DNA of 33,837 nucleotides from assembly GCA_944383515.1 (NCBI GenBank), contig CALWPV010000068.1:1-33837 (forward strand). Direction: 5' to 3'. Within the stretch, counting starts at the first letter, position 1. Each line of letters opens with the position of its first letter. Below, piece after piece: positions 7,201 through 33,837 of this stretch. The stretch comes from an uncultured Clostridia bacterium. Its GTDB lineage: Bacteria; Bacillota; Clostridia; Lachnospirales; Bianqueaceae. The notes under the pieces were generated by a model that searched no databases, had not been told where the DNA came from, and worked only from the letters and a program-made list of their open reading frames with translations. The position numbers and the translations under genes were made by a program.

Positions 7201-8601
7201 ATGAAAATAAAAGTATGGTTAGTATGTGCGCTGCTGCTATGTTTGCTGGCAGCTTGTCAAAGCGGAACAGAATCGACCGAGAAAGAACCAGAGGCTCCTC
7301 AAGAAACCGTGACGCTTCGTTGGGGCGTGGTAGATCCTACAGGCGAAAAAACCATGGAAGCGCTTCGCATCAATCAGGTGAATGCGCTGCTGCGTGAAAA
7401 AGGATATGCCTTTCAGGTAGATATCGAGTACATGACAGAAGCGTCAGCTGATGTAGATATTATTACCTTTCCTGTTATGGGGGTAGGAGCGCAGTGGATG
7501 GAAGAAACACTGCTTCCTTTGGAGCCTTATTTAGAAGAAGGGCAGCCCTTATACAAAGCGGCCTCCTTGTTGCCCGAACAGTTTTGGCAGTTTGACCAGA
7601 TAGAAGGGCATAATTATAACTTTGGGCAGCTGGTCGACGCGCAGTTTATCGCTTTTCTTATCTCCTATATGGGCGAAGAGACACCTCAGGAATACAACTG
7701 GCAAGCACTGCGTCAAAATGGCACGGCGCAGGTGCCGGATTTAGTTCAAACCTTGGAAGCGCCTATTAAAGTTGCTATGCCCTATGTATCGGCTTGGGGA
7801 GACGAGCTGGGCTTGCAGTGCGCGTTTCATATGGTGGCTCCCGGCGTGGGCCTGCAGATAGATGGAGGCGTGGCATTTGAGAATGTATGGGAAAGTCAAT
7901 GGGTAGAAGAAGCGCTAAGCAGAGAAGAACATTGGCTTTTCAGTGGTCAAGGAGCTACCTATACGACAGAAGCCATGCAGCGGGACTGGCCGTTTTTTAT
8001 TATGCGTGGTAGCACCCGTTTAGAAGAGATAAAGCAATCGGAAAGCGGCGCAGGCGTTACGGTTCCTTCTATTTACGAAGGAAATATTGTACCGTCGTTA
8101 GAAAGACGGTATACTTCGGTGCTTCGGGCTTCGGACCGCTCACAAGAAGCACTGGAATTACTTGGCGCTCTAGGGAGCGACGCGGAATTAGCGAATGCTT
8201 TGTGCGAGCCAATACAGAACCGGTATCAAAACCGCTTAACCGAGTTCTTTCCTGAACTCTGTACCATCTGGCTGCTGCGGGAAAGGGATACACAGGAATC
8301 GATGCAGACCAGATTGCAGCTGCAAGAAGAAGGGCGCATTTCTCCTATTTTAGGGTTTAGTTTTGACGCCAGTCCGGTGGCCAAAGAAATGCAAGCGGTA
8401 CAGGCTGCAATGCAAGAAGGAACCCCAATGGCTGTAGGCGACGCAGTGATTAGCGCGGAAGAAAGCGGATCCGACATGACGGGCGTAGTGAGTACATGGC
8501 GGGAAGAAATAGAACAAATGAAAGCGGCCTTACAAAAAGCCGGTATAGATACAATAGTGGAAGAAGCTAACCGCCAGTTACAGGCATGGAGAGGGGAATA
8601 A
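7201..8601 (+). CDS. Second substrate-binding-like lipoprotein
   Basis: A 466-residue protein from ATG 7201, five bases after GGAGG (7191-7195). The signal peptide ends in the lipobox LAAC at residues 15-18. The mature part starts with a Glu-rich linker, then TVTLRWGVVDPTG, a strand typical of extracellular solute-binding proteins. A periplasmic-binding-protein-like fold is likely, but no diagnostic motif is visible. It lies 66 bases after the first lipoprotein on the same strand and has no transport partners in the window. Cotranscription is plausible because I see no terminator between them. Confidence 0.6.
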   Translation: MKIKVWLVCALLLCLLAACQSGTESTEKEPEAPQETVTLRWGVVDPTGEKTMEALRINQVNALLREKGYAFQVDIEYMTEASADVDIITFPVMGVGAQWMEETLLPLEPYLEEGQPLYKAASLLPEQFWQFDQIEGHNYNFGQLVDAQFIAFLISYMGEETPQEYNWQALRQNGTAQVPDLVQTLEAPIKVAMPYVSAWGDELGLQCAFHMVAPGVGLQIDGGVAFENVWESQWVEEALSREEHWLFSGQGATYTTEAMQRDWPFFIMRGSTRLEEIKQSESGAGVTVPSIYEGNIVPSLERRYTSVLRASDRSQEALELLGALGSDAELANALCEPIQNRYQNRLTEFFPELCTIWLLRERDTQESMQTRLQLQEEGRISPILGFSFDASPVAKEMQAVQAAMQEGTPMAVGDAVISAEESGSDMTGVVSTWREEIEQMKAALQKAGIDTIVEEANRQLQAWRGE

Positions 8602-8654
8602 CCAGCGATTATAAGAAACCGGCCGCGGCGGCAACGAATTACAAAAATTGGGGG

Positions 8655-8683
8655 TTGACATTCAGACTATAATTGAGTACAAT
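8655..8683 (+). promoter_or_regulatory. Promoter of the leu/ilv operon
   Basis: A consensus TTGACA (8655-8660), a 17-bp spacer and TACAAT (8678-8683) form a strong sigma-A promoter. Transcription should start near 8690, immediately before the T-box leader. Confidence 0.85.
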
Positions 8684-8689
8684 AGTCCG

Positions 8690-9016
8690 TAAAGGTTGCG
8701 ATGGATTAATAAGACCGCTAAGGCATGGCAGAGAGCCGTTGGGTGGTGTAAAACGGTATGCAAGGCGGGGATAGCTCTTTTCCTGAACTTCTGCCTGAAC
8801 ACGCTCTGGCGTCAGTAGGAGCAGACGGGTCTCTCCCGTTATTGAGATGCCGTGTTGTTAGACGCGGACTGAGTGGGTATTGCATTTTCCGCTACCATAG
8901 TGAATGTTGGCGTGAAATGTGACCAAGAAGAGTGGTACCACGGAGAATCTTCATAGTGAAATACTTCGTCTCTTTCAAACAAAACAGGTGGCTGCTTTGT
9001 TTGAAAGAGATTTTTT
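8690..9016 (+). promoter_or_regulatory. T-box riboswitch, probably leucine-specific
   Basis: The leader shows the conserved T-box parts in order. The Stem I apical region with GAGAGC and the GGGTGGTGTAA loop is at 8731-8752. A candidate specifier codon CTT (Leu) follows GAA at 8788-8790. An AGTAGG linker is at 8814-8819. Stem III, ACGGG/CCCGTT, is around 8825-8840. The T-box core GTGGTACCACGG is at 8932-8943. In the T-box, TGGT fits a tRNA ending in ACCA, as tRNA-Leu does. Uncharged tRNA would stabilise the antiterminator and let transcription enter leuA. The specifier position is my reading of the fold and should be treated as likely, not proven. Confidence 0.88.
8969..9016 (+). terminator. 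T-box-controlled terminator
   Basis: TCTCTTTCAAACAAA (8969-8983) and its perfect complement (8996-9010) form a 15-bp stem with a 12-base loop, followed directly by six T residues (9011-9016). This is the conditional terminator of the T-box leader. Confidence 0.9.
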
Positions 9017-9070
9017 ATTATATAAAATGTCTTTCCAAATCGAGCAGACTCAATTAAAAAAGGAAGGTAA

Positions 9071-10771
9071 ATGGCAATGAAAGGTTTTGAAAAGTATACC
9101 AGACAGTTTTACGAGGCAAAGCCCGTCAGCATGCGCTGGGCTCAGAAATCGTATATTGATCACGCGCCCACCTGGTGCAGCGTGGATTTGCGCGACGGCA
9201 ATCAGGCGCTCATTACCCCCATGAGCCTGGAGGAAAAGCTGGAGTTTTTTAAACTGCTGATTAAAGTAGGGTTTAAAGAAATTGAAATTGGCTTTCCGGC
9301 CGCTTCCGAAACGGAATATGAATTTTGCCGCACACTCATTGAAAACAATATGATTCCGGACGATGTGTGCATTCAGGTGCTGACCCAGTCTCGTGAGCAC
9401 ATTATTGCGAAAACCTTTGAAGCGCTGCAGGGTGCCAAAAATGCGATTGTACACCTATATAATTCCACTTCTGTGGCGCAGCGAGAGCAGGTTTTCAGAA
9501 AAAGCAAAGAAGAGATTATTGAAATTGCCACATCGGGCGCTCAGCTTTGCCTGGCATACCGTGAGAAGACGCCGGGCAACTTCCGGTTTGAATATTCTCC
9601 CGAAAGCTTTACCGGCACCGAACCCGAATTTGCTGCCGAAATTTGCAACGCGGTCATTGATATCTGGAAGCCGACGGCGCAAAATCCGGTCATTATCAAT
9701 TTGCCGGTTACGGTATCGCATTCCATGCCGCATATTTACGCCAACCAAGTAGAGTATATGTGTGATCATTTGCATAGCCGCGAGCATATTATCGTCTCCC
9801 TGCATCCGCATAACGACCGCGGCTGCGCCGTGGCCGACAGCGAAATGGGCCTGCTGGCCGGCGGCGACCGTATTGAAGGAACGCTGTTCGGTAATGGCGA
9901 GCGTACCGGTAATGTAGATATCATTACCTTAGCTATGAATCTGTATTCACAGGGCGTGGATCCGCAGCTGGATTTCTCCAATCTGCCGGAAATTACGGAA
10001 GTGTATGAAAAAGTTACCCGCATGCACGTATACGAGCGCCAGCCCTATAGCGGCCGCTTAGTCTTCGCCGCGTTCAGCGGTTCTCACCAAGACGCCATTG
10101 CCAAAGGCATGAAGTGGCGCCAGGAAAAACAGCCGCAGTACTGGACCGTGCCGTACCTGCCGCTAGACCCGCACGATGTAGGCCGTGAATACGAAACCGA
10201 TGTCATTCGGATTAACTCGCAGTCTGGCAAGGGCGGTATTGGTTATATTATGGAAACGCGCTTTAACTTCAGCATGCCGAAGAAAATGAGCGAAGAATTC
10301 GGATACCGCGTAAAAGGCGTATCGGATCATGCGCATAAAGAGCTGATGCCAGAAGAAGTACGGGACATTTTCTACGACTCCTATGTCAATATTTTGATAC
10401 CGGTGCAGATTCCGGAAACGCATTATAAACAGATTCCGGAGGGCATTGAAGCCACCGTTACCATTGAAGCGGCAGGAGAAACAGCCACCTTCAGCGCTAC
10501 CGGCAACGGACGTCTGGATGCGGTAAGCAGCGCGCTGAGCCGCGCGATTGGCGTAGAGTATCAGCTGGAAACGTATACCGAGCATGCCATGGAAGAAAAA
10601 ACAAACTCCCGCGCCGCCTCTTACGTTAGCGTAATCGACGGAGAGGGGAGGCGCTACTGGGGCGTCGGCATCGACAGCGATATTATTGTATCCTCTGTTA
10701 AAGCGCTTCTTTCGGCGGTGAACAACATGATTAACGCTCAAGGCAAGGCCATTGAGCACCTGAACGCATAA
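9071..10771 (+). CDS. leuA: 2-isopropylmalate synthase
   Basis: LeuA condenses 2-oxoisovalerate with acetyl-CoA, the first committed step of leucine synthesis. At 566 residues it is the long form. The TIM-barrel domain carries DLRDGNQ (residues 39-45), IEIGFPAAS, the metal-binding HPHNDRG and the GNGERTGN loop. The last ~130 residues form the LeuA dimer/regulatory domain that usually gives leucine feedback inhibition. AGGAAGG (9060-9066) precedes ATG 9071; a second in-frame ATG is at 9077. It is the first gene after the T-box, so it should be induced when charged tRNA-Leu is scarce. Confidence 0.96.
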
Positions 10772-10794
10772 AGGCAAAACAAGGAGAGGCACAC

Positions 10795-12474
10795 ATGAAA
10801 ATATCAGGCGCACAAATTGTCATTGAAACCTTGATCGAGCAAGGGGTAACCGATGTATTTGGCTACCCCGGCGGTCAGGTGCTGAATATATACGACGAAT
10901 TATACAAAGCCTCGGATCGCATTCACCACGTACTGTCCGCGCACGAGCAAGGCGCGGCCCACGCGGCCGACGGCTATTCCAGGGCTACCGGAAAGGTTGG
11001 CGTGGTAATCGCCACTTCCGGCCCTGGCGCGACCAACCTGGTTACCGGCATTGCCACCGCCATGCTGGACTCCATTCCCATGGTCGCCATTACCGGTAAC
11101 GTTCCCTGTTCACTCATTGGTAAAGACAGCTTTCAAGAGATCGACATTACCGGCATTACCCTTCCCATTACCAAGCACAATTATTTTGTGAACAATGTAG
11201 AAAAACTGGCCGATACCATTCGAGAGGCCTTTCAGATTGCTAAATCTGGCCGCCCGGGCCCGGTGCTGGTCGATATTCCTAAAGACGTGCAAACGGCCGA
11301 GTGCGAATATATCCGCAAATCGGTTATGCCCATGCTGCCGCAGCGAATTGCCAAACAGGCCGATATTGACGAGGCCGTGCGGCTCATTAACGAGGCGGAG
11401 CGCCCCTATATTTATATCGGCGGCGGCGCGGCCGGCCGGGGCATGGGAAAACAAATTTTAGCCATGGCCGAAAAAATTGACGGCTACATTGGCTGCACCT
11501 TCATGGGCCTGTCGGCCATTTCCAATTCCTGCGACCGCTTCTTAGGCATGGAAGGCATGCACGGGCGCTACCCCTCTTCCATGGCCAATAAAGAAGCCGA
11601 TCTCATTCTCGCGGTAGGCGTTCGCTTTAGCGACCGCGCCACCGGCAACGTGGAGAAATACGCCAAAGGCGCCAAAATCATTCAGCTCGATCCCGATTTT
11701 GCCGAGATCAATAAAAACGTCCATGTGGAGTTAGGCATCATTTGCGACATTGTTGACGCCTTCGAGCGCATTTTAGTGAGCGCGGCGCCGGCCAGCCACC
11801 CCGCGTGGCGGGAAATGGTTGAAGGCTTCAAGCAGGAAGAGCAGCGCATAGAGGCCGAGCAGGAAGCGGCGTCTACGGTGCCCATGACACCGAAGAAGAT
11901 GTTTGATATCATTAACGAAATTAAAACGCCAGAAACCATTATTGCGACCGATGTGGGGCAGCACCAGATGTGGACGGCGCAGTATGTAGACTTTTTACAG
12001 ACAAGGCGCTTCGTATCCAGCGGCGGGCTGGGTACCATGGGCTTTGGCCTTGGCGCCGCCATTGGCGCTGCGGTAGCCACGGGCGACCGTACGGTGCTCA
12101 TTACCGGCGACGGTAGCTTTGGCATGAATCTGAACGAACTGGCTACCGCCGTTTCGTACCACCTGCCGATTGTGATTGTGATTGCCAATAACGGCGTGCT
12201 CGGCATGGTACGGCAGTGGCAGACGCTGTTTTATGGACAGCGTTACTCCAATACCGTGCTGAACCGGCAAACCGACTTTGTCAAACTAGCCGAGGCCTTT
12301 GGCGCGGAGGGCGTTAGAGTGTCTACCCCGGAAGAATTCCGCGAGGCGTTTGCGCGCGGTATGCAGGCCGAAGGTCCTTTTGTGATCGATACGCTTATCG
12401 ATAAAGACGAGTTTGTGCTTCCTATGCTGCCGCCCGGCGGTTCTATTGACGATATCATTGTAAAAAAGGCGTGA
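10795..12474 (+). CDS. ilvB: Acetolactate synthase, large catalytic subunit
   Basis: This 559-residue TPP-dependent enzyme makes 2-acetolactate from pyruvate, or 2-aceto-2-hydroxybutyrate from pyruvate and 2-oxobutyrate. The N-terminal pyrimidine-binding domain has [14 protein letters not shown] with the catalytic Glu, then [12 protein letters not shown]. The middle FAD/NAD-like domain is present. The C-terminal diphosphate-binding domain has [15 protein letters not shown] followed by IVIANN. AAGGAGAGG lies before ATG 10795, 23 bases after leuA. The stop is followed closely by ilvN, as expected for a two-subunit enzyme. Confidence 0.96.
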
Positions 12475-22775: not shown

Positions 22776-22843
22776 GCCATTTGAACAAGAAAAATGACCG
22801 TTTATGCAAATAAGAAGAAAAGAGAGGAGAAATATATTATAAT
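22776..22843 (+). promoter_or_regulatory. LytTR-type direct-repeat promoter of agrBD
   Basis: GCCATTTGA (22776-22784) and ACCGTTTAT (22797-22805) are direct repeats with 21-bp spacing, two helical turns, as in AgrA-type sites. TATAAT lies at 22838-22843, 41 bp after the start of the second repeat. The -35 position (AAGAAA, 22815-22820) is poor, as expected for an activator-dependent promoter. The same layout occurs at 25828-25895. Transcription would begin near 22850, which excludes the upstream in-frame start codons for agrB. Confidence 0.7.
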
Positions 22844-22874
22844 TTATACATTAAAACAGAAAGGAGGGTTGGAC

Positions 22875-23477
22875 ATGCTCCATACTTTAGCCAAACGAAT
22901 GGCTAGTATTACATTACAGAAAAGCTTGGGTGAGCAAGAGAAGCAAAATGTTTTAACATATGGCTATGAGCTTCTTTTTTCACAGACTTTTACCTGTTTT
23001 TGTATTTTAGTAATAGCTTTTGGGCTAGGGTGTTTTTTAGACGCTATTTTCTTTTTAGGTTCTTTTATTGCCATACGCATTTGGAGCGGCGGATATCATG
23101 CTAGGACATTTGCCAGATGCTTTATAAGTTCAGTGGGCATTTCTTTGTTGGCAATAGGGGCCGAAAAGGCGGTATGCCTAGCACCTAGTGTATGGCTTAT
23201 TGTACTGCTTTTATTGTTGGCCAATGGTGTGTTTTTCTTTAAAGGACCTTTCTTGAGCACTCGGCACCTATTACCAGCTAGAAAAGTACAAGAAAATCGA
23301 AAAAAACTTTGGGCAACTGTGTGTGTAGAAAATGTTGTGTGCGTTTTGTTCTCTATATTAGAGCAATGGAATATTGCCTATATTATTTCGTTTGGCGAAG
23401 TGGCAGCAGCTATTTTATTAGTACTGGCAGGGTATATGAAATCATACTCGTTAAAGGGAAAGGAGGAAACTCTATAA
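22875..23477 (+). CDS. agrB: AgrB-like autoinducer-processing membrane protease
   Basis: AgrB cleaves the AgrD precursor and closes the (thio)lactone ring at the membrane. The 200-residue protein starts at ATG 22875 behind AAGGAGGG. It has the catalytic pair His75 (GGYHARTF) and Cys82 (ARCFISS), the same seven-residue separation as in staphylococcal AgrB. Four to six hydrophobic segments follow (about 43-70, 86-105, 111-131, 150-165, 172-190). The start codon of agrD overlaps its stop. Confidence 0.9.
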   Translation: MLHTLAKRMASITLQKSLGEQEKQNVLTYGYELLFSQTFTCFCILVIAFGLGCFLDAIFFLGSFIAIRIWSGGYHARTFARCFISSVGISLLAIGAEKAVCLAPSVWLIVLLLLLANGVFFFKGPFLSTRHLLPARKVQENRKKLWATVCVENVVCVLFSILEQWNIAYIISFGEVAAAILLVLAGYMKSYSLKGKEETL

Positions 23478-23593
23478 TGTGGAATTGGTTAGCACAAATG
23501 ATTGAGTCAATTGCGCACATGGGAGCAGGGTTGCTTTCATGGGGGCTTAATTATGAACCGGAACTTCCGGAGGAGTTAAAAAACAAGAAATAA
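23477..23593 (+). CDS. agrD: AgrD-like cyclic peptide precursor with serine in the ring position
   Basis: A 38-residue peptide whose ATG 23477 overlaps the agrB stop; AAAGGAGG lies at 23458-23465. It has the three expected parts: an amphipathic N-terminal helix (MWNWLAQMIESIAHMG), a short core, and the acidic C-terminal tail YEPELPEELKNKK that AgrB recognises. There is no cysteine at all. Ser21 in LLSWGLNYEPE takes the usual Cys place, which would give a lactone rather than a thiolactone, as known in a few staphylococci. The ring is probably S-W-G-L-N or S-W-G-L-N-Y; the cleavage point cannot be fixed by sequence. Confidence 0.85.
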   Translation: MWNWLAQMIESIAHMGAGLLSWGLNYEPELPEELKNKK

Positions 23594-23595
23594 GG

Positions 23596-23630
23596 GTACA
23601 AGGGCAGAAGAACTGCCCTTGTGCTCATTT
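23596..23630 (+). terminator. Hairpin between agrD and the agrA-like gene
   Basis: GTACAAGGGCAG (23596-23607) pairs with CTGCCCTTGTGC (23613-23624, one G-T pair) around loop AAGAA, followed by TCATTTTAC. It resembles an attenuating terminator that would make agrBD transcripts more abundant than the regulator's. Confidence 0.65.
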
Positions 23631-23653
23631 TACAATTGTGAGGAGAATTAATT

Positions 23654-24397
23654 ATGCCAGCACTTGTGATTTGTGACGATGTAAAAAAAGACGTAGAACA
23701 GTTAACTTTATTGGTACAGCAGTACCAGAATAGTAAAGCAATATATAATTTATCGGTATACACTTTTGAAAATGGGGAAAGCCTCTTAGCTAAAATAACA
23801 GAAGGGTTTAAAGGAGATATTTATTTACTGGATATTGACATGCCGGAACTTAATGGATTAGAGCTGGCAAGACGAATTCGAGAGAAAAAAGAAAATGCTA
23901 TTATTATTTTTGTGACTCGGTATTTAGATTACTGTCAACAAGGCTATGAATATGGATTCCGATATGTGAATAAGGAAAATCTTGAGCCTGAATTAACAAA
24001 AGCCTTAGACGCGGCGTTTCTGAAACTGAAAAGGGAAAGAGAGTACAGAAAGATTGAACTGGTTACTCTATCCAAAAGAATATATATTCCAATATCAGAT
24101 ATTCAATTAATTGAAAGGGTTCAGCGGAAGGTCCACGCTTATATACAAAATCATGGAAAGCTGGTTTTGCAGGAGACGGGAATTCAAAAGTTATATCAAC
24201 AATTAGGTGAGGATCAATTTATTATGTGTGATCGCGGGTGTATTGTTAATATAGACTATATACAAGAGATTGAAAATGACAAATTGCGTCTAACAGTATG
24301 CTATGCTGGAAAAGCCTTGGAGACCTACATTAGCAGAAGGCGCAAAAAGGCAGTAATTCAGGCGCTGAATCAGTGTATTAAAAAGAATCTTACATAG
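23654..24397 (+). CDS. agrA: AgrA-like LytTR response regulator
   Basis: This 247-residue protein has an N-terminal receiver domain with acidic pocket DD (residues 8-9), phospho-acceptor Asp60 in LLDIDMPELNG, the conserved Thr in IIFVTRYLDY and Lys in RYVNKEN. The C-terminal ~105 residues (from about 145) form a LytTR DNA-binding domain, with IPISDIQLIE, VHAYIQNHGKL and FIMCDRGCIVNIDYI. GTGAGGAGAA lies before ATG 23654. It is the likely reader of the 21-bp-spaced direct repeats upstream of agrB and at 25828. Its 3' end overlaps that of the kinase gene by eight bases. Confidence 0.9.
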   Translation: MPALVICDDVKKDVEQLTLLVQQYQNSKAIYNLSVYTFENGESLLAKITEGFKGDIYLLDIDMPELNGLELARRIREKKENAIIIFVTRYLDYCQQGYEYGFRYVNKENLEPELTKALDAAFLKLKREREYRKIELVTLSKRIYIPISDIQLIERVQRKVHAYIQNHGKLVLQETGIQKLYQQLGEDQFIMCDRGCIVNIDYIQEIENDKLRLTVCYAGKALETYISRRRKKAVIQALNQCIKKNLT

Positions 24398-25715
24398 GGC
24401 GGTTCATGAGAGTGAACTCTACATGAAAACAGTTTTCGCTATAAGAAACTTGAATATTGCCGTCATATTTTTTTACTATATCGCGAATAATTTGCGTTCC
24501 AAAGCCATGGCCTGGAGAGCTTTTTTTACGAATTAGTTTTTTACCTGTAATGATTGGTGAAGTTTCGCAATAATTGTTGACTTCGCAGTAGAGAATATTG
24601 TGTTTTTGGCGAATATACATATTCACAAAACGCTTTTCCTTTTCAACACTTCGTAAGCAGGCTTCTATGGCGTTATCTAGTAGATTGCTTAGAATTGAAC
24701 ATAGATCTAGGGAGGCAATTTGAAGTGGCGTAGTTAAAATGACATCAGCTTCGAAGCAGATCCCTTGGATATCTGCTTCTTGGTGTTTTAAACTAAGAAT
24801 CGCATCAAGAATTTCATTGCCCGTATGATAATCGTGCATTGTTTTTTTATTAGAACTATTTTGTAATAACTCATGAATATATTCGGACGCTTCAGAGCCA
24901 ACAGGCAGCTGTGACAGGGCCTCCAGGTGTTTGGTAAAATCGTGCGCTTTTTTAGCCAATTCTTTTTCATTGGCTACAGTAGCTTTATATTCTTTCGAGA
25001 GAAGTAAGTTATGAGCCAGTTGCTTTTGTAATGCTTGTTGATTGCGAGAATACGATTGATATAACACTACAATAAAAATAAAGGCAATCATGCAAGTAGC
25101 TAGTAGTATCCAAGCGAGAATGACAAAAGAAGAATGGAAATTATCAGGAGAAGATATAATTATGTTTACACAAATTGACATAAGGCTATAGGCAAAAATA
25201 AAGCTAATGAAAAGGATTATTTGCATTTTTAAACTTAATGTTCGTATATTTTTTATATACCGAAATAGAATAAGCGAAAGTATAGTTTGGATACTCTTGT
25301 TAACCAATGTATATAGTAAACGAAAAGAGCCAGGGGTTGCTAAAGCTTGAAAGCTTTCATATAGACTGTCGGATTTTTGTAATAAAAAGGCAAGAGAAAA
25401 TCCAATGATATAATCTAACATATGTAAAAAAAATATTATTAAAGTACATGAAAGCGCACGAAGTAAAATGGATCCCTTAGAAAAAATGGGACTTAAAAGA
25501 AGACATGTTAAAAATGCAATGACAATAGTTAAAAAGGAGAAATAAACTAAATTATTAGCAAAAGCAACAAAAAGGGACAGCAGTATGACACAACTAGTCA
25601 TCGCCATAGCTTGTTTATATCCAGTAAATCGAAAACCAGCCCCACAGGCAATAGCTGAGACAATTAAAGTATTTTCAAGAAGGGTAGCAATCAGATCACT
25701 AATTGTATAGAGCAT
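24390..25715 (-). CDS. agrC: AgrC-like GHKL sensor histidine kinase
   Basis: The 441-residue membrane kinase starts at ATG 25715-25713 after GAGGAG on the minus strand. The first ~215 residues carry six or seven hydrophobic segments, the peptide-sensing domain of AgrC-type receptors. The phospho-acceptor is His258 in HDFTKHLEAL. The ATP-binding domain has the N box NLLDNAIEAC and G box GHGFGTQIIRDIV, typical of the GHKL (HATPase_c_5) type without a classical H-box. Its convergent orientation to the regulator is unusual, since agrBDCA genes usually run in one operon. Confidence 0.9.
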   Translation of the reverse strand: MLYTISDLIATLLENTLIVSAIACGAGFRFTGYKQAMAMTSCVILLSLFVAFANNLVYFSFLTIVIAFLTCLLLSPIFSKGSILLRALSCTLIIFFLHMLDYIIGFSLAFLLQKSDSLYESFQALATPGSFRLLYTLVNKSIQTILSLILFRYIKNIRTLSLKMQIILFISFIFAYSLMSICVNIIISSPDNFHSSFVILAWILLATCMIAFIFIVVLYQSYSRNQQALQKQLAHNLLLSKEYKATVANEKELAKKAHDFTKHLEALSQLPVGSEASEYIHELLQNSSNKKTMHDYHTGNEILDAILSLKHQEADIQGICFEADVILTTPLQIASLDLCSILSNLLDNAIEACLRSVEKEKRFVNMYIRQKHNILYCEVNNYCETSPIITGKKLIRKKSSPGHGFGTQIIRDIVKKYDGNIQVSYSENCFHVEFTLMNRPM

Positions 25716-26441: not shown

Positions 26442-26467
26442 AAAAGAAATGAATGGGAGGTTGCAAA

Positions 26468-27099
26468 ATGACACAGAAAAAAATTTACGATAAGGAGTTT
26501 AGAATTCAGGCAGTAAAGCTGGAAAGAGAAATTGGTTTTAGTGCAGCCGCAAAGGAATTAGGCGTCAACGTAGATACATTGTATGGGTGGAACAAGCACG
26601 CCAAAGACGTCAGACGGGATTTAGGACCAGGCACCCAGACGCCGGATACGGCTATGCGCAGCTGAAAAGCCGTTGAAGAAATGCGTGGCGGATATTACGG
26701 AAATTCCTGCACGAGATGGAAAGCTTTATGTCTCTGCTATTTTTGACTGTTATGATCTTGGTGTTCTCGGACTGGCAATGTCGGATAACAGGAAGGCTGC
26801 CCTGTGTGTATCCACCGTAAGGAATGCCGATATTTCCTACCCGTCTTCCGGAGCATGAACGGTGATGGTGGCAGATGCCATGATAATGCCCGCTGTGAGG
26901 CGATGTGGGCAAGAATGAAGGAGTAACTACCGTATAACAGATATGATACAAAGCAAATGATGATGGAAGAAGTGAAAACTCTAACCTAGAGATACTATAT
27001 GATTTACTGGAACACTCGTCGGATATGCTCTGCCAATGGAGGGGGCCACCTATGATCAAACGCAAACAATACTATGAGTCATTAGAACCGGTAGCTTAA
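26468..27099 (+). mobile_element. Degraded IS3-family insertion sequence
   Basis: OrfA begins at ATG 26468 behind GGGAGG and reads KKIYDKEFRIQAVKLERE, the helix-turn-helix start of IS3-type transposases, but is cut after about 48 residues. From about 26672 an OrfB piece follows, with ADITEIPARDGKLYVSAIFD (part of the DDE core) up to about 26820. A further frame near 26858-27099 encodes the C-terminal part, with NGDGGRCHDNARCEAMWARM containing the last catalytic region, an in-frame stop, then ICSANGGLPP and the terminal TAA. Several internal deletions and frameshifts make it inactive. Terminal inverted repeats were not identified. Confidence 0.85.
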
Positions 27100-27308
27100 A
27101 GAATTTCGTGAAGAAAAAGTGTAAAGGTGTATTGACAATATCATATAATGACATAGTAGAAGACATTATATTATTACTAACATGTCGGCTTTTCAGCGAT
27201 AAGAATCAAAGTATTCTGAAAAAATGATGTGTGGAATTCGGCTTAGCAAATACGAACGAATAACAATTTGACCTGAAATTAGCTCATAAAGAGGTGAAAG
27301 ACAAGTTA

Positions 27309-28211
27309 ATGGTGTTAGATAAGAATATTTATTTTAGTTTTTTGAAAATAAAGTATAAATATGACTATCAGTATATCATTTCAATTCTTAATAATGAAGC
27401 TGATTTTCCATATGTATTTTTTAAAGGGGAATCTTTGTCATATTATGCATATGGAGAACCTTGGAAAAGGCACTTTGGAGATATAGATATGTTAATTAAT
27501 CGGAAAGATGTAAGTAAGATGGAATCATTACTAGCGAGACATGGGTTTGTCTCGAAGCATCTTACAAGAGAAGAGAAAATTTTTATTAATGCTTTTTCTC
27601 ATCAAACACCACCTTTACGAAAGAAAACGAAGAGAGGAATGATAGAGATCGATTTAAACTTTGATATATTGTGGGGGGATTGGCGAGGAATGAGACCTAA
27701 TTTAGAATCCTTTTTTGAAAGAAGAGAAAGAATTCGGATGTTTGATGTAACAGTTCCAACATTAAATCCACAGGATTATTTTCTAGCACTTTGTTTACAT
27801 CACTATAAAGATATGAATAATATATATCATCTTTCTGATCATAATACCATTATTACAGAGAAGTTTTTAGATATTTCAAATTTTTGGATTAGACAAAAAA
27901 ACAGAATCGATATTGATGAAACAAGAAAATGGATGGATAAATATGAGTTAACACCTTTCTTTTTTTATATATTTACTTTAACATGTGAAATTTTTGATTT
28001 GCCAGATTTAAAGAGTTGGGCTGAAGAACTAAAGACAGAAGGAGGGAAGACATTATTATCTAAATATGGATTAAATGCCTCGGAAAGGAAAGTCTGGTCA
28101 ATCGGTTTTTTAGAAAGATTAGATAATCCTGATCTACCGTCAATCGTAAATGCAGATTTAACAGAACGAGATAAAAAAATGCTGGAAGTTAATAGGAAAA
28201 TTTTTGGATAA
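27309..28211 (+). CDS. Nucleotidyltransferase-fold protein (NTP_transf_5-like)
   Basis: The 300-residue protein starts at ATG 27309, 12 bases after GAGGTG; GTG 27294 overlaps that ribosome site. It shows the pattern of the uncharacterised nucleotidyltransferase family: FFKGESLSYYAYG, then HFGDIDMLI with the metal-binding Asp58 and Asp60, followed by EIDLNFDILW with a likely third acidic residue, and HHYKDM. Members often occur in RiPP loci, including lasso peptide clusters with HPr-kinase-like enzymes. The gene is AT-rich like the rest of the cluster. It is the first gene of the putative RiPP region, but separated from it by about 1 kb of decayed sequence. Confidence 0.75.
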   Translation: MVLDKNIYFSFLKIKYKYDYQYIISILNNEADFPYVFFKGESLSYYAYGEPWKRHFGDIDMLINRKDVSKMESLLARHGFVSKHLTREEKIFINAFSHQTPPLRKKTKRGMIEIDLNFDILWGDWRGMRPNLESFFERRERIRMFDVTVPTLNPQDYFLALCLHHYKDMNNIYHLSDHNTIITEKFLDISNFWIRQKNRIDIDETRKWMDKYELTPFFFYIFTLTCEIFDLPDLKSWAEELKTEGGKTLLSKYGLNASERKVWSIGFLERLDNPDLPSIVNADLTERDKKMLEVNRKIFG

Positions 28212-28275
28212 TTCCTATGAATTTTAATAAAGGTACTATAAAGTATTTTTAAGAGATGAAAAATAGGGAGATTTT

Positions 28276-28314
28276 ATGAAGCCAGATTGGAAATCATGTA
28301 TAGATTCTAGATAA
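28276..28314 (+). other. 12-codon micro-ORF with ribosome binding site
   Basis: AGGGAG (28264-28269) precedes ATG 28276, and the frame MKPDWKSCIDSR ends at TAA 28314. It could be the rest of a lost gene, for example a truncated precursor, or a chance reading. No function is proposed. Confidence 0.2.
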
Positions 28315-28404
28315 ATTTAACAGTATCTTGTGTAATTAAATAAATTGAAAGTTACATTATGAATTTTGATAGTCTTTTTATAAGATTTTAGATGAGGTGG
28401 TATT

Positions 28405-28671
28405 TTGAATAAAGAGGATATGTGTTACAGATTTTTTGAATAATTTAGAAATACAAGTTATGGAGATGTATTGCAACTAACAAGTGGTAATAATGAAATT
28501 TATTTGTATGTTAGAAAAGTTCTTGCAAAAGGAAAGGACTACTATGATTTGTCTATATCAAATATCTTTTGCGAGTCATGTCAACAATTTGTAAAAGACA
28601 TAAAACTAATTACAAAAATATGGGAAATTGCTAAAAAAACCAAACCAAGACAATTAGTTTTCTATATTTAA
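28405..28671 (+). pseudogene. Small gene with early in-frame stop
   Basis: A TTG start at 28405 behind GAGGTGG gives NKEDMCYRFFE, then TAA (28441-28443). The same frame continues without interruption to TAA 28671 with FRNTSYGDVLQLTSGNNEIYL and later SNIFCESCQQFVKDIKLITK. The full reading would be about 88 residues. I do not recognise the family; the C-E-S-C motif and size are compatible with a small RiPP-associated protein. The lone early stop suggests a recent loss. Confidence 0.4.
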
Positions 28672-29206
28672 GTAGAGATAGTCAACTTGATGATAATTTA
28701 AAAAAAAGGAGGGATATATTATAATTTCGGTGATGATTCTACTAAAATACAGGCAGCTGTTGATGATAAAAGGGAGTACATAATCATTTTTTAGGCAAGT
28801 CATTGTAAGTATCTTTGAAGATCTTAATTTAACTAGGATTAAGATTCTGTTAAAGGGAACAGCGGGAGTATCTAAGAAGTAGAACGAGATTGTCTGTAAC
28901 AAATAGAGGTGCCCCGATGAACACATAAAAAAATGGAAGGCTAGAATGGGAAAAGCCTTTTATCAACCGAGTAGAAGTGTCACGCGGGTTGGTAGCAAAA
29001 GCCGGATTGGAATAAAGATACAAATCATAGGCTTAACCGAGCTGGTTGAGCAGATATTTATTAAGTTACCAAGATGCATGTATGCATCTAGATGATATTA
29101 TACAAGGAGAAATACCCATCTCCTTGGCTCATTCATCTGAGATAGTAACCTGAAAAAGCCTTTATTTTAAAGGGAAAATCACTTGACAATATAGGAGGGT
29201 ATTATT
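28672..29206. other. Decayed intergenic region before the radical SAM genes
   Basis: There is no intact gene. A ribosome-site-like AAAGGAGGG at 28705-28713 has no usable ORF behind it. Short open stretches near 28935-29092 look like gene debris. Two structured elements are listed separately: the palindrome at 29072-29089 and a hairpin at 29103-29126. No clear promoter for the cluster was found here. Confidence 0.5.
29072..29126 (+). promoter_or_regulatory. Palindrome and hairpin upstream of the pqqD-like gene
   Basis: AGATGCAT-GT-ATGCATCT (29072-29089) is an 18-bp near-perfect palindrome and a candidate operator. CAAGGAGA (29103-29110) and TCTCCTTG (29119-29126) form an 8-bp hairpin that would lie in the 5' leader of the cluster, or end a transcript from upstream. 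There is no T-run after it. Confidence 0.35.
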
Positions 29207-29461
29207 ATGTTTAAGAAGTCGCAATTTATTGCACAAGAAAAAGTAGGAGATATTTTAGTTATTTTTGAAGAGAAAAATGAAGAGTTTTATTATTTGGATA
29301 AATTGGAACAATTGATATGGGATAACATAGAAACACGAACGGTGGATGAAATGGTATCTTTTATATATGAGCAATATGATGAGAAAAAAGATAAGATTAA
29401 AAATGATTTATTAAGGTTTTATTCGGAACTTCTGGAAAAGGAGCTAATATATGAAAAATAA
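29207..29461 (+). CDS. PqqD-like peptide-binding protein (RRE)
   Basis: An 84-residue protein from ATG 29207 after TAGGAGGG. Its layout matches PqqD-type RiPP recognition elements: beta-strands at the N-terminus (GDILVIFEEKNEEFYYLDKL), the segment LEQLIWDNIETRTVDEMVSF where PqqD proteins have A..iW..ldG..t..ei, and a C-terminal helix pair. It probably binds the leader of the precursor and presents it to the radical SAM enzymes. It overlaps the following peptidase gene by 11 bases. Confidence 0.8.
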   Translation: MFKKSQFIAQEKVGDILVIFEEKNEEFYYLDKLEQLIWDNIETRTVDEMVSFIYEQYDEKKDKIKNDLLRFYSELLEKELIYEK

Positions 29462-29804
29462 GAGAAATTTTTTAAAAAAACAAATTTTTATCCTTGAGAA
29501 TTTACATAAAAAAAATAAAGAGTTTTATATTACTATTCATGGCGAAAGTATGATGCCTTCGTTATCAGATGGACAAAAAATTAGGATTATACCAATTAAA
29601 TGTTATGATAAAGAAATTGAAGAAGGGGATGTTATTTTGTTTTCGAAATTTCCATCCCATATGACAGTACATAGGGTATATGAGGTGAAGAAAATGTGTT
29701 CAGAAACCTTCTATTGGACCAAGGGGGATAATAATACTTGTCCGGATAACTATTATGTAAAGAAAAAAGATATAGTAGGAATTTTACCAAATCTTAAGAA
29801 ATGA
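29451..29804 (+). CDS. Short S24/S26-type peptidase without membrane anchor
   Basis: The 117-residue protein has the signal-peptidase serine motif GESMMPSL (Ser33) and the GDVILFS strand. In place of the bacterial catalytic lysine there is VHRV (His74), as in SipW/ER-type signal peptidases. Box E reads TKGDNNTCPDN. The usual N-terminal transmembrane helix is missing, so the enzyme is probably cytoplasmic. In this setting it may remove the leader from the modified peptide. It starts within the pqqD-like gene (ATG 29451) and ends nine bases before the first radical SAM gene, indicating one operon. Confidence 0.82.
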   Translation: MKNKRNFLKKQIFILENLHKKNKEFYITIHGESMMPSLSDGQKIRIIPIKCYDKEIEEGDVILFSKFPSHMTVHRVYEVKKMCSETFYWTKGDNNTCPDNYYVKKKDIVGILPNLKK

Positions 29805-29813
29805 GGGAATTTT

Positions 29814-31178
29814 ATGAAATCGCTACATTGGGATATCACAAATAGGTGTAATTTAAGATGTAAGCATTGCTATAATGCTGACCGATATTTTAATGCTAAC
29901 TCTAAGGATTATTCAAACAAGGAACTGTCGCTTGATGATAGTCTTAAGATAGTGGATAAAATAATGCAGGATGGATTTGATCACATTCATTTGCTGGGAG
30001 GGGAACCGTTAGCGAGTCCTAATCTTATGCCAATTATTAAACGTGCAAAAGAATATGGATTGAAGGTAACGATTAATTCTAATGCAACATTATTAGATTC
30101 TAAAATGCAGGATAAATTAATCGAATTAGAGATTGATCATTTTGCTGCAAGTATAGATGGTGTATCAACTAAAACAAATGATTGGATTAGGGGCAATGGG
30201 ACTTTTGAGGTAGTATGCTCTAATATGAAGGAATTTAACAAAAAAATATTATTATCTGGCTCATTAATTCAAACATGTATAGTTTCTACTATTACACGTG
30301 CGAATTACAATGAAATTATTAAGTTACCCAGGCTTGCAAGAGAAATTGGTTGTCACCATATAACAATTGCCACTTTCATTGAATCTGGAAATGGACGTGA
30401 AAGCAAAGAGGCTTTTGAAGCACCGGTTGATCTTTTGTTTGATGCTATTTTTGAAATGATAAAAAAAGAATTGGATAATACAAACGATTTGTATTTTCAA
30501 CTAGATTCACGACCGTATGTTGTAGAGTATTTACATAGTAAATTTAATGCACCGATTCTATTTAATCCTAAGAATGCTCTTTGCTGTGCGGGAGAAGATA
30601 TTTGGTACATGGAAGCCGATGGGGATATTCATCCCTGTTTAGTCTATAGATTAAACGCTGGTATCGAAGCTCAACAGCATGGGATTTTTAAAACAGAAAA
30701 ACTTAATTTGAGTACTAATGAGATATCTTGCATTAGAGAATCAAAATACTGGAGGGATTTTTTAAAATACAAAAATGATTTTGATGTTTCGAAGATTATC
30801 CCATGCGATCAGTGTAAATATACTAATATATGCATGCCATGTCCACTTGAATATTTTGGAGGTAAAAAGAATAATGAAGAGTGCATGTGGGTTATAAAGA
30901 AATTAAATGAAGATATCTGCAACCTAAAAAAAATAAAGGTGGAGATAAAAGAAGATATTCTTATAAAAAATAATGAAATTGTTAAGGCGGGAAAAAGGGT
31001 GTTGGAATGCGATGATTTCTCTTTACGTATTTTGCAAAGTATCGTAAATGGAAAGGATTTTGCTACTATCGTCAATTCTATTGTAAAGACATGTGCAGTA
31101 ACGGAAGAACGGGTACAGTTGGACGTTGCACATTTGATGAATTATTTCATTAGTAGAGATATTCTATCATATAAGTAA
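29814..31178 (+). CDS. Radical SAM/SPASM maturase with C-terminal PqqD-like extension
   Basis: This 454-residue enzyme has the radical SAM cluster motif at Cys12, Cys16 and Cys19 (RCNLRCKHC), then the LLGGEPL glycine motif and NSNATLL. The SPASM region from about residue 260 holds CCAGEDIWYMEADGDIHPC and, later, PCDQCKYTNICMPC for auxiliary iron-sulfur clusters. The final ~95 residues (from about KVEIKEDILIK) look like a PqqD-type domain, so leader recognition may be built in. Such enzymes introduce thioether or carbon-carbon links in peptides. GAGGGAA precedes ATG 29814. Confidence 0.88.
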   Translation: MKSLHWDITNRCNLRCKHCYNADRYFNANSKDYSNKELSLDDSLKIVDKIMQDGFDHIHLLGGEPLASPNLMPIIKRAKEYGLKVTINSNATLLDSKMQDKLIELEIDHFAASIDGVSTKTNDWIRGNGTFEVVCSNMKEFNKKILLSGSLIQTCIVSTITRANYNEIIKLPRLAREIGCHHITIATFIESGNGRESKEAFEAPVDLLFDAIFEMIKKELDNTNDLYFQLDSRPYVVEYLHSKFNAPILFNPKNALCCAGEDIWYMEADGDIHPCLVYRLNAGIEAQQHGIFKTEKLNLSTNEISCIRESKYWRDFLKYKNDFDVSKIIPCDQCKYTNICMPCPLEYFGGKKNNEECMWVIKKLNEDICNLKKIKVEIKEDILIKNNEIVKAGKRVLECDDFSLRILQSIVNGKDFATIVNSIVKTCAVTEERVQLDVAHLMNYFISRDILSYK

Positions 31179-31200
31179 AGTTTATTTAAGGAGTAAAATG

Positions 31201-32253
31201 ATGCGAACATTATTGTGGGACTATACAGAGGAATGTAACTTACGTTGTATACATTGTTATAATTCAGAAAATAACAGAAAAAGAAGGAAAACGATATATA
31301 CGGAAGAATGTAAGGAGTTTTTTTTAGGACAATTAGAAAAATTAAAGATAAATCATGTTCATTTACTAGGAGGAGAGCCTTTATGTTCTGAAAATATTTT
31401 TGATTTTATTAGGCAAGCTAAATGCAGAAACATAAAAATATCAATAAATACAAATGGAACATTATTATCAAGAAAGGTGATTGATACGCTGATTGAGTTG
31501 AACGTTGATCAATTGACTATTAGTTTAGATGGAGCAGACTCAGAATCAAATGATGAAATAAGAGGAAAAGGGACATTTGATATAGTAATGTACCATTTGA
31601 AGTTATTAAGTCAAGAACTTAAAAAAACACATACACAGCTGTTTGTTCAATTGGCAACAGTTATCACTCGAATAAACAAAGAGACAATACATAGATTACC
31701 TTTATTAGCAAATCAATTTGATATCAAAGTAATTGATGTTATGCCAGTAGCGATTAGAGGGGAAGCCAAGAAAAATATTGACAGGTTGGGAATAACTTGT
31801 GAAGAATACTTTAATGTTTTATCTAAAATGATTCCATTAGCATATTTTTGCAAAGTGAAACTTCAAATTGATTGTAAGTCAAAAGTTCTAGAGGCTTTCG
31901 CTCGTAAAAATAATTGCAATATGAAATTTGAAACAGAATTTGATTCATGTCAGGCTGGCGATAGGATTATTTATATGGATGCAGAGGGAAATTTATTTCC
32001 ATGTAGTCCCTTATCCATGACCAAATTAGGACAAGAGATGAGGGAATCAATTTTTGATGATTTATGTGTTTTGAAAGTTAGAAATTTTAAGGAGAGGATA
32101 GAGCAATATTTTTCTAATATCCAGTTGCCAAAGACTTGTAAAAAATGCGAAAAAAATAATTCGTGTGACTTTGGAAAGTGTGGATGTTCAATAAGCTATG
32201 AATTGTGTGAGTTGGCTATGGAGCATTTGGAAGAAAACCACAATTCGATTTAA
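31201..32253 (+). CDS. Second radical SAM/SPASM maturase
   Basis: The 350-residue enzyme is a paralogue of the preceding one. With ATG 31201 as start (seven bases after AAGGAG) the cluster cysteines fall at 12, 16 and 19 (ECNLRCIHC), the same positions as in the first enzyme; ATG 31198 is the alternative. LLGGEPL and SINTNGTLL follow. Its SPASM region has SCQAGDRIIYMDAEGNLFPC and a cysteine-rich end (CKKCEKNNSCDFGKCGC). It lacks the PqqD-like extension, so it may rely on the separate PqqD protein. It ends just before the precursor gene. Confidence 0.88.
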   Translation: MRTLLWDYTEECNLRCIHCYNSENNRKRRKTIYTEECKEFFLGQLEKLKINHVHLLGGEPLCSENIFDFIRQAKCRNIKISINTNGTLLSRKVIDTLIELNVDQLTISLDGADSESNDEIRGKGTFDIVMYHLKLLSQELKKTHTQLFVQLATVITRINKETIHRLPLLANQFDIKVIDVMPVAIRGEAKKNIDRLGITCEEYFNVLSKMIPLAYFCKVKLQIDCKSKVLEAFARKNNCNMKFETEFDSCQAGDRIIYMDAEGNLFPCSPLSMTKLGQEMRESIFDDLCVLKVRNFKERIEQYFSNIQLPKTCKKCEKNNSCDFGKCGCSISYELCELAMEHLEENHNSI

Positions 32254-32289
32254 TATATATTGTGGAATCTAATGAAAGGGAGGAAAACC

Positions 32290-32451
32290 ATGGAAGAACG
32301 TAGCAAAAAGTTAAGTGCTGAAGAAAAATTAGGTGCTGAAGAAAAGCAAAAGTATACAAGTCCTATGGTAAAAGCATTGGATATTTCACAAGCACTTATG
32401 GTTGCCGCATCAAAGAGCGGAATGGGTAATTGTAAAATTACATTTATCTAA
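32290..32451 (+). CDS. Candidate RiPP precursor peptide
   Basis: A 53-residue peptide from ATG 32290 behind GGGAGG (32279-32284). The leader is highly charged, with a six-residue tandem repeat built on A-E-E-K. It then has KYTSPMVKALDISQALMVAA, whose YxxP element resembles leader motifs read by RRE domains. The end SKSGMGNCKITFI has one Cys, two Ser and several hydrophobic residues, fitting a small modified core. It lies between the second radical SAM gene and the HPr-kinase-like gene. It is not one of the precursor families I recognise. Confidence 0.75.
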   Translation: MEERSKKLSAEEKLGAEEKQKYTSPMVKALDISQALMVAASKSGMGNCKITFI

Positions 32452-32460
32452 TGTAATCAG

Positions 32461-32497
32461 GAATTTTATCCCGTAGATTGTCTGCGGGATAAAATTC
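32461..32497 (+). terminator. Strong hairpin between precursor and kinase genes
   Basis: GAATTTTATCCCG (32461-32473) and CGGGATAAAATTC (32485-32497) are perfect complements with an 11-base loop. There is no clear T-run, so it probably protects the precursor mRNA 3' end or partially attenuates the downstream gene, giving more peptide than enzyme. Confidence 0.6.
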
Positions 32498-32548
32498 ATC
32501 CTGAATATCAGCAACTAAATGAAAAAGGCTTATTAGAAGGATAAGAGT

Positions 32549-33481
32549 ATGAAATGTATAGAGATTGCAAATAAACTTATTGCAATTTATGGCGATGAGT
32601 GGTTAATCAAGGATTTTTCTAGGAGGGTTCAGTTTAGAAATGTTTTAGATATTCAAAAGACTGACCTTAAAGTTATGTTGAAAGTTGTAAAAGTACTTAA
32701 CAGGACTATACCAATTTCCTCCGGAATATACGAGCCAGTTTTTGATGAAACCGGTTTTTCTAGAAATATCCTAGGTATATGCGAATTATACTTTGTTGCT
32801 AGAGAGAATACAATATTTGTTAATTATATTAATTGCCATAGTAAAGATAATAGAGAGATTATAGTGGACGCAACTTTACAATTTGTTTCACTAAGCATGT
32901 TATATTTGGATATACTGCCCTTTCATGGAGCACTTGTAATTTCTAATGGTTGTGGAATAATATTGGCAGGTCAATCGGGAGCTGGAAAATCAACCTTGGA
33001 ATTTTCATTAGTTAATGCAGGAATGAAATTTTTTTCAGATGATATCTTTTTTCTTGGGAATGATGGATGGATCTATAATAATGGGGAGTATATTATGGGA
33101 CTTAGAGAAGATGCAATAAATAAGTTAAGAATATCATCGGATTTTTTTAGGGAGAGGGTTAGTGGTGGTAAAAGAATAATTGACATGAGAATGAAAGCGT
33201 ATAATGACCATAGGGTGAAAGTAAAGTATATTTTTTTTCCACTGGGAGGAAATCAAAAAAAGGGGCATTCTATTATTCAGTTATCAAGGGAGGAAACCAT
33301 AATAAAATTATTAGAACTTACTATTTCAGAAAAACTCCCATCAGAATTTAAGCATAAATATTTTAAAAGTTTAAGCAGGTTGGTTAAAACGTTAAAGTCA
33401 TATGAGATCAAAAGATCACTTTCGTGTGATGACTTTGAAACAGAGCAGATTTGTAAAGATATACTTAGAATAGTTAAATGA
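32549..33481 (+). CDS. HPr-kinase-like peptide-modifying enzyme
   Basis: The 310-residue protein has the HPr kinase P-loop AGQSGAGKST (Walker A around residues 140-149), preceded by LPFHGALVI with the family His, and followed by FFSDDIFFL, the S-D-D segment of the HprK fold. It lacks the N-terminal domain of true HPr kinase. Related proteins occur in lasso peptide clusters, where they phosphorylate a precursor serine, and in the SynChlorMet cassette (ScmC). Here Ser40 or Ser42 of the candidate precursor would be a possible target, which is inference. GAAGGATAAGA precedes ATG 32549. Confidence 0.78.
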   Translation: MKCIEIANKLIAIYGDEWLIKDFSRRVQFRNVLDIQKTDLKVMLKVVKVLNRTIPISSGIYEPVFDETGFSRNILGICELYFVARENTIFVNYINCHSKDNREIIVDATLQFVSLSMLYLDILPFHGALVISNGCGIILAGQSGAGKSTLEFSLVNAGMKFFSDDIFFLGNDGWIYNNGEYIMGLREDAINKLRISSDFFRERVSGGKRIIDMRMKAYNDHRVKVKYIFFPLGGNQKKGHSIIQLSREETIIKLLELTISEKLPSEFKHKYFKSLSRLVKTLKSYEIKRSLSCDDFETEQICKDILRIVK

Positions 33482-33565: not shown

Positions 33566-33837
33566 ATGTTACAAAATTATACTCCTGAATTCAAAAAGAA
33601 GATGGTTCGCCTCCATGAGGAAAGGGGCCGAACCTACCAAAGTATCACCGCTGAGTATAGCGTATCTAAAGCCAGTATCTCTCAAGTAATGCTTAGAATT
33701 CCGCAATGAACGCCAAACAGATCCTCAAGCCCAAGAAGAGTATGACTCCATGAAAGAGAATATCCGTTTAAAAAGGGAAAATGAAGAATTACGCAAGGAG
33801 ATTGCATTCTTAAAAAAGCGGCGGCATTCTTTGCAAA
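33566..33837 (+). mobile_element. IS3-family OrfA, frameshifted and cut by the window end
   Basis: ATG 33566 begins MLQNYTPEFKKKMVRLHEE, a transposase helix-turn-helix. The frame stops at TGA 33707-33709. Around 33687 the coding sense moves to another frame, which continues FRNERQTDPQAQEEYDSM and a coiled-coil-like KRENEELRKEIAFLKKAA to the window end. The element is thus a frameshifted remnant, or its OrfA carries a recent one-base change. It is a different IS3 subgroup member from the one at 26468. Confidence 0.8.

Follow-up and report, generated by a model that had tools for sequence, protein, structure and literature searches.

A putative RiPP cluster that joins a radical SAM pair to lasso-like recognition and phospho-tailoring genes in a clostridial genome

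What kind of product is made by a run of genes that places two radical S-adenosylmethionine (rSAM) enzymes beside proteins more familiar from lasso peptide clusters? Here we address this question for seven intact genes, all on the + strand, at 27294-33481 of contig CALWPV010000068.1 (C68) from an uncultured Clostridia bacterium (GCA_944383515.1); the window analysed is that entire contig (33,837 bp), whose end falls inside an IS3-like open reading frame (ORF). We read the locus as a cluster for a ribosomally synthesised and post-translationally modified peptide (RiPP), with a new rSAM-dependent precursor family, lasso-like recognition and phospho-tailoring, and put the probability of this reading at about 0.72; the reactions, their order, the cleavage site and the product are all features that we infer. 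The cluster is real and rare, and its product is probably a small peptide that carries chemical modifications. From the PqqD gene through rSAM2, neighbouring genes overlap or are spaced by 19 bp or less, and profile matches confirm the set that a sequence-only reading of this DNA had listed, namely an rSAM pair, PqqD, a soluble S26 peptidase, an HprK-like protein and a nucleotidyltransferase:

27294..28211, + strand: NTP_transf_5 nucleotidyltransferase-like protein, 305 aa, DxD motif at D63/D65 (Pfam PF14907, E=1e-28)
29207..29461, + strand: discrete PqqD/RiPP recognition element (RRE) leader-binding protein (predicted), 84 aa (Pfam PF05402, E=1.7e-8)
29451..29804, + strand: soluble S26-type signal-peptidase-like protease, 117 aa, candidate leader peptidase (TIGR02228, E=6e-19, above cut-off)
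29814..31178, + strand: rSAM1, radical SAM/SPASM enzyme with a predicted C-terminal PqqD/RRE-like domain (Pfam Radical_SAM, 8e-23)
31198..32253, + strand: rSAM2, radical SAM/SPASM enzyme (Pfam Radical_SAM, 4e-24)
32290..32451, + strand: precursor peptide, 53 aa, core shared with loci L015 and L010 (below)
32453..32508, + strand: RNA stem-loop immediately 3' of the precursor gene (z -7.2)
32549..33481, + strand: HprK-like kinase, a P-loop protein of 310 aa with H126, K147, D164 and D165 (Hpr_kinase_C, 1.7e-7, slightly below the gathering score; HprK_rel_A, 3.7e-9)

The reading is carried above all by the recurrence of the precursor. The small ORF 3' of rSAM2, which has a good ribosome-binding site, encodes MEERSKKLSAEEKLGAEEKQKYTSPMVKALDISQALMVAASKSGMGNCKITFI and matches nothing in any profile library tried. 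When an alignment of both rSAMs was scanned against about 85,000 genomes, at least 80 rSAM loci were returned, and among the matches listed the precursor appears only in two, L015 and L010. L015, from a Lachnospiraceae metagenome-assembled genome (MAG) of buffalo reticulum, encodes rSAM1 and rSAM2 homologues 44% and 40% identical to those of the window, and its precursor, MQKKTYAKPSVKLVKVEKAVMVAASRSGMGNCKITFIS, is located between rSAM2 and the HprK homologue. L010, on a contig labelled as an Ignavibacteriales MAG, holds rSAM1, PqqD, rSAM2, an ATP-binding cassette (ABC) exporter and a precursor (MEKREYVSPEVVNQPMITFEDLADAKSGMGSCKVTYK, ending SGMGSCKVTYK) consecutively. The window and L015 precursors are 61% identical over 36 aa (E=3e-11), and a profile built from these two only ranked the L010 precursor as the top non-member among 32,733 ORFs (E=1.6e-4). 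Because the core recurs beside homologous rSAM pairs on two unrelated contigs, the cluster goes beyond chance, and both the RiPP reading and the precursor that had been proposed from sequence are borne out; the precursor ORF is present in both related neighbourhoods, and no homologous locus already assigned to a characterised RiPP class was found. The kernel common to the three loci, which come from highly dissimilar genomes, consists of rSAM1, PqqD, rSAM2 and the precursor.

In a tree, the rSAMs of these loci fall into one clade together with the clostridial-type rSAMs of two others, L011 and L114; the window and L015 pairs are one-to-one orthologues, and the position of the L010 enzymes within the clade is not resolved. 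L114, from the search of the order, was rejected as a member: its rSAM is related, but its candidate precursors are different and glycine-rich. At the twin-rSAM locus L011 (Clostridium hydrogenum, 7673-10450), the candidate precursor is again a different one, of 40 aa, with GRSTVNIFC at its end. Of about 2,000 genomes sampled (391 from the class, 383 from the window's own order, 19 from its family, 397 and 79 from the families of L015 and L010, and 329 from the phylum), none held a further cluster member, and rSAM2 alone, as a query against genome contigs, found nothing. Plasmids and phages searched by tblastn gave no precursor or kinase match and generic rSAM matches, the top plasmid match being remote (a Paraclostridium sordellii plasmid, 27% identity); two viral contigs matched by a core-motif pattern (L117, L118) have no precursor-like ORF in the frames concerned and were judged chance. 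Further members may exist beyond the three loci.

All three precursors carry the leader motif YxxPxV (Y22-x-x-P25-x-V27 in the window), and the core (S41-K-S-G-M-G-N-C-K-I-T-F-I53) is conserved far more than the leader: over the 17-residue stretch MVAAS[K/R]SGMGNCKITFI, the window and L015 differ at one residue. Since six of the seven codon differences between the two cores are synonymous and one is non-synonymous, selection appears to act on the peptide sequence itself. The family is most likely defined by the core SGMG[N/S]CK[I/V]T[F/Y], a motif for which no published description was found in the searchable literature. Right after the precursor, each of the three loci has a strong stem-loop (z of -7.0 in L015 and -3.9 in L010), in keeping with a precursor produced in surplus over later genes. 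That of the window is likely to act as a partial terminator, or to stabilise the mRNA, and so to favour the precursor over the downstream kinase. An RNA family search gave no match.

What, then, might act on this core? Both rSAMs, 32% identical to each other, carry CxxxCxxC, a C-terminal CxxCx5C and further conserved cysteines, a SPASM-type set. The closest solved folds to the catalytic part of rSAM1 include SuiB (the streptide maturase), SkfB and PqqE, which share its SPASM architecture and a leader-binding RRE at about 16-23% identity in structural alignments; the window differs from this class by the RRE-like domain at the C-terminus of rSAM1, a stand-alone PqqD and two enzymes per locus. 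That C-terminal domain (residues ~376-454), an addition to the sequence-only reading, is hardly covered by the fold search. It matches PqqD profiles below threshold (E=0.022, and 0.0039 for the L015 homologue), and in an AlphaFold model it adopts a beta4-alpha3 arrangement with PqqD-like strand and helix order (predicted local distance difference test, pLDDT, 79-90), which suggests a PqqD/RRE-like domain. We infer cross-linking by the two rSAM enzymes; in chemical terms, a thioether at the Cys and a C-C bond between Lys and the aromatic residue of the core would be reasonable, if unproven. The single conserved Cys48 is compatible with a thioether of the sactipeptide or ranthipeptide kind, and among the NCBIfam profile matches listed no sactipeptide or ranthipeptide model scored above its cut-off.

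The combination of PqqD with rSAM/SPASM enzymes, the mycofactocin maturase profile and PqqE fold among the relatives, and a core so much better conserved than its leader would also suit a pathway to a peptide-derived redox cofactor, akin to pyrroloquinoline quinone or mycofactocin, in place of a secreted bioactive peptide. We consider this highly improbable in view of the ABC exporters in both relatives, the lasso-type tailoring genes and the patchy distribution of the locus; moreover, no dehydrogenase or other client enzyme was seen in the three loci.

Twin rSAM/SPASM enzymes, a PqqD-like and an HprK-like protein are also held in common with the SynChlorMet cassette (ScmC HprK-like, ScmD PqqD-like, ScmE/ScmF the rSAM pair), of which the locus could be a diverged version. 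Indeed, the scores of rSAM1 favour ScmF over ScmE (83 versus 57 bits) and those of rSAM2 favour ScmE over ScmF (86 versus 66 bits), a pattern that hints at remote kinship; the best NCBIfam matches of the discrete PqqD are lasso_PqqD_Bac and ScmD, both under cut-off, the L015 PqqD has ScmD as its top NCBIfam match (41.7 bits), and the HprK matches ScmC at 1.8e-4. However, the NCBIfam equivalog cut-offs are far missed (ScmC 21 of 125 bits, ScmD 25 of 100, ScmE 86 of 400, ScmF 83 of 400), heme b synthase and tungsten-oxidoreductase maturase families score as high or higher, and HprK is absent from L010. Judged by these cut-offs for the ScmC, ScmD, ScmE and ScmF profiles, the locus is not a SynChlorMet member. 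To our knowledge, neither an S26 peptidase, nor NTP_transf_5, nor a YxxP/SGMGxCK precursor is part of the SynChlorMet cassette, and a diverged version of that cassette seems to us quite unlikely.

Lasso peptides account for another part of the gene set. The YxxPxV of the three leaders is close to YxxPxL, the motif of lasso leaders (PMC10368454), which B1 proteins of the PqqD type bind with nanomolar affinity (PMC5067487). Furthermore, lasso peptides receive a phosphate on their C-terminal Ser from HprK-like kinases, the nucleotidyltransferase homologue PsmN is required for decorating that phosphate (PMC9266682), and HprK and nucleotidyltransferase genes are both common in rumen lasso clusters (PMC7533575). 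With lasso clusters (paeninodin PadeA/B1/B2/C/K, pseudomycoidin PsmK/PsmN, bsf) our locus shares a YxxPx[L/V] leader, a discrete PqqD-like B1, an HprK-like kinase with His-Lys-Asp-Asp, an NTP_transf_5-like protein and, in its relatives, an ABC exporter. Unlike them, it carries the rSAM/SPASM pair together with a soluble S26 peptidase in place of the cyclase and B2, and its core, with a single Cys, lacks an acceptor Asp/Glu. Among all cluster genes visible in the window up to the contig end at 33837, and most of those in L015 and L010, Pfam scans gave no asparagine-synthetase-like cyclase (C), and there is no B2 transglutaminase-like protease, an S26-type peptidase being found instead. On these sequence grounds, YxxPxV and PqqD are a recognition logic shared with lasso peptides and not a sign of lasso membership. 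The earlier picture of a SynChlorMet-like rSAM pair and PqqD mixed with lasso-type HprK and NTP_transf_5 finds support here, and the neighbourhoods of L015 and L010 strengthen it. A bolder and more tentative view, which we regard as less likely than not, is that of a hybrid class of RiPPs: a lasso chassis (YxxP leader, B1/PqqD, HprK, NTP_transf_5, exporter) would have exchanged its cyclase and B2 for an rSAM pair together with an intracellular signal peptidase, and the radically crosslinked product would also be phosphorylated and nucleotidylated or glycosylated.

Of the tailoring proteins, the HprK-like kinase is 30% identical to its L015 counterpart, with H126, K147, D164 and D165 invariant; at the level of the motif, its His-Lys-Asp-Asp catalytic set agrees with the one published (PMC9266682), and a structure model (pLDDT 46) was too poor for use and set aside. 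The L015 peptide ends in Ser (TCA), the residue that lasso kinases modify, whereas the window peptide has TAA at that codon and ends in Ile, one residue shorter; the further phosphorylation suggested by the sequence-only reading is therefore doubtful for the window peptide, while the L015 peptide retains the expected site. Given this early end, the window kinase may be idle, or it may act on Thr51 or Ser41/43. The NTP_transf_5 gene could start at GTG 27294 or, as in the sequence-only reading, at ATG 27309. In L015, S26 and NTP_transf_5 are fused in one ORF, the latter part covering profile positions 2-248, and this fusion links the two functions. Inspection of its translation shows that the window's S26-type protein has the Ser (Ser33) and His (His74) of SipW-type enzymes and lacks any hydrophobic or membrane segment. 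Signal peptidases require small residues at -3/-1, and the MVAA before the first Ser of the core fits such specificity, which together with Ser33/His74 makes this protein a candidate leader peptidase.

Besides the HprK and the fused ORF, L015 contains two ABC exporters and a third rSAM, and a protein of unknown function precedes its rSAM1. The third rSAM (10252-11070), absent from the window, is YydG-like, of a peptide epimerase family, and suggests D-residues in the L015 product.

Assembled into a pathway, the discrete PqqD (RRE) would bind the leader at YxxPxV and hand the precursor to rSAM1 and rSAM2, with rSAM1 perhaps contributing its own RRE-like domain. Both SPASM enzymes would then modify SGMGxCKxT[F/Y], the invariant motif at the C-terminus, by radical chemistry, the candidate sites being Cys48, Lys49 and the aromatic residue 52, joined by a Cys thioether and/or a Lys-aromatic C-C crosslink. 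The soluble Ser-His S26 peptidase would next cut off the leader, most simply between ...MVAA and SKSGMGNCKITFI, where the -3/-1 small-residue rule is met; the HprK-like kinase would add phosphate and NTP_transf_5 a nucleotidyl or sugar group, as PadeK/PsmK and PsmN do, and the product would leave through an ABC exporter of the kind found in both relatives and not on contig C68.

Several observations weigh against the RiPP reading. Only three members are known, and beyond the kernel L010 has the ABC exporter only; since it lacks kinase, nucleotidyltransferase and peptidase, these three, which the sequence-only reading had listed as part of the cluster, lie outside the kernel and count as optional genes for tailoring, of a kind seen with lasso peptides. 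The window kinase has an uncertain target with no C-terminal Ser, the window's NTP_transf_5 matches profile positions 68-248 of 249 and leaves the N-terminal quarter unmatched, and the rSAM1 domain assignment draws on sub-threshold matches and a model from three sequences. About 1 kb between NTP_transf_5 and PqqD (28212-29206) is without a convincing ORF; a possible gene remnant in frame at 28471-28671 is matched by none of the L015 or L010 cluster proteins. Finally, no transporter is visible in the window. That part of the sequence-only reading stands, contig C68 having no exporter, but it does not extend to the genome, for the contig breaks off within an IS3-like ORF. Because both relatives have ABC exporters, the missing transporter is probably a contig-end effect; the window's genome has 34 ABC matches, none distinguishable as the exporter of this cluster.

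The island, at ~31% G+C against 50-55% for much of the remaining contig, is bordered on both sides by insertion sequence (IS) features:

26453..27065, + strand: IS3-like transposase remnants, left island border (HTH_Tnp_1, 2.5e-6; rve, 4.6e-4)
33566..33837, + strand: IS3-like transposase ORF at the contig end, right island border (HTH_Tnp_1, E=0.0025)

From the ORF-poor stretch, these flanking remnants and the truncated NTP_transf_5 match, the cluster in the window may be partly decayed or incomplete. Taken to its end, this would mean that IS elements have shaped a formerly complete L015-like cluster into a remnant without function, a view that the AT-rich island, the lack of an exporter and the stop codon at the position of the L015 C-terminal Ser codon would also suit. 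Yet the seven ORFs are intact with their catalytic motifs and tight spacing, the codon differences in the core are mainly synonymous, and the missing part may lie past the contig end; we regard such wholesale decay as unlikely.

The locus most likely defines a precursor family that combines a 10-residue motif of strong conservation with its own rSAM pair, which opens the chemistry to a direct test by co-expression. A further suggestion is that modules for RiPP recognition and tailoring (leader motif, PqqD, HprK, NTP_transf_5) pass between classes of unrelated core chemistry, and that a cytoplasmic signal-peptidase-type enzyme could act as a RiPP leader peptidase; a 2023 review of the proteases that remove RiPP leaders (PMC10885120) does not mention this type.

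Elsewhere in the window's genome, contig C96 (L108, 1361-7500) encodes NTP_transf_5, PqqD, one radical SAM, a P-loop HprK-like protein and an ABC exporter, with small ORFs unrelated to the window precursor: the same tailoring kit with another precursor. On contig C97 (L107; 5972-7600 and 571-1868), what looks like a Cys-rich peptide of the SCIFF type occurs with its PqqD-fused rSAM maturase, and there is a separate PqqD and rSAM pair. Just upstream of the island, at 22794-25715 of the window, an AgrB-like protein, a LytTR response regulator and an opposite-strand GHKL histidine kinase make up an agr-like quorum-sensing locus.

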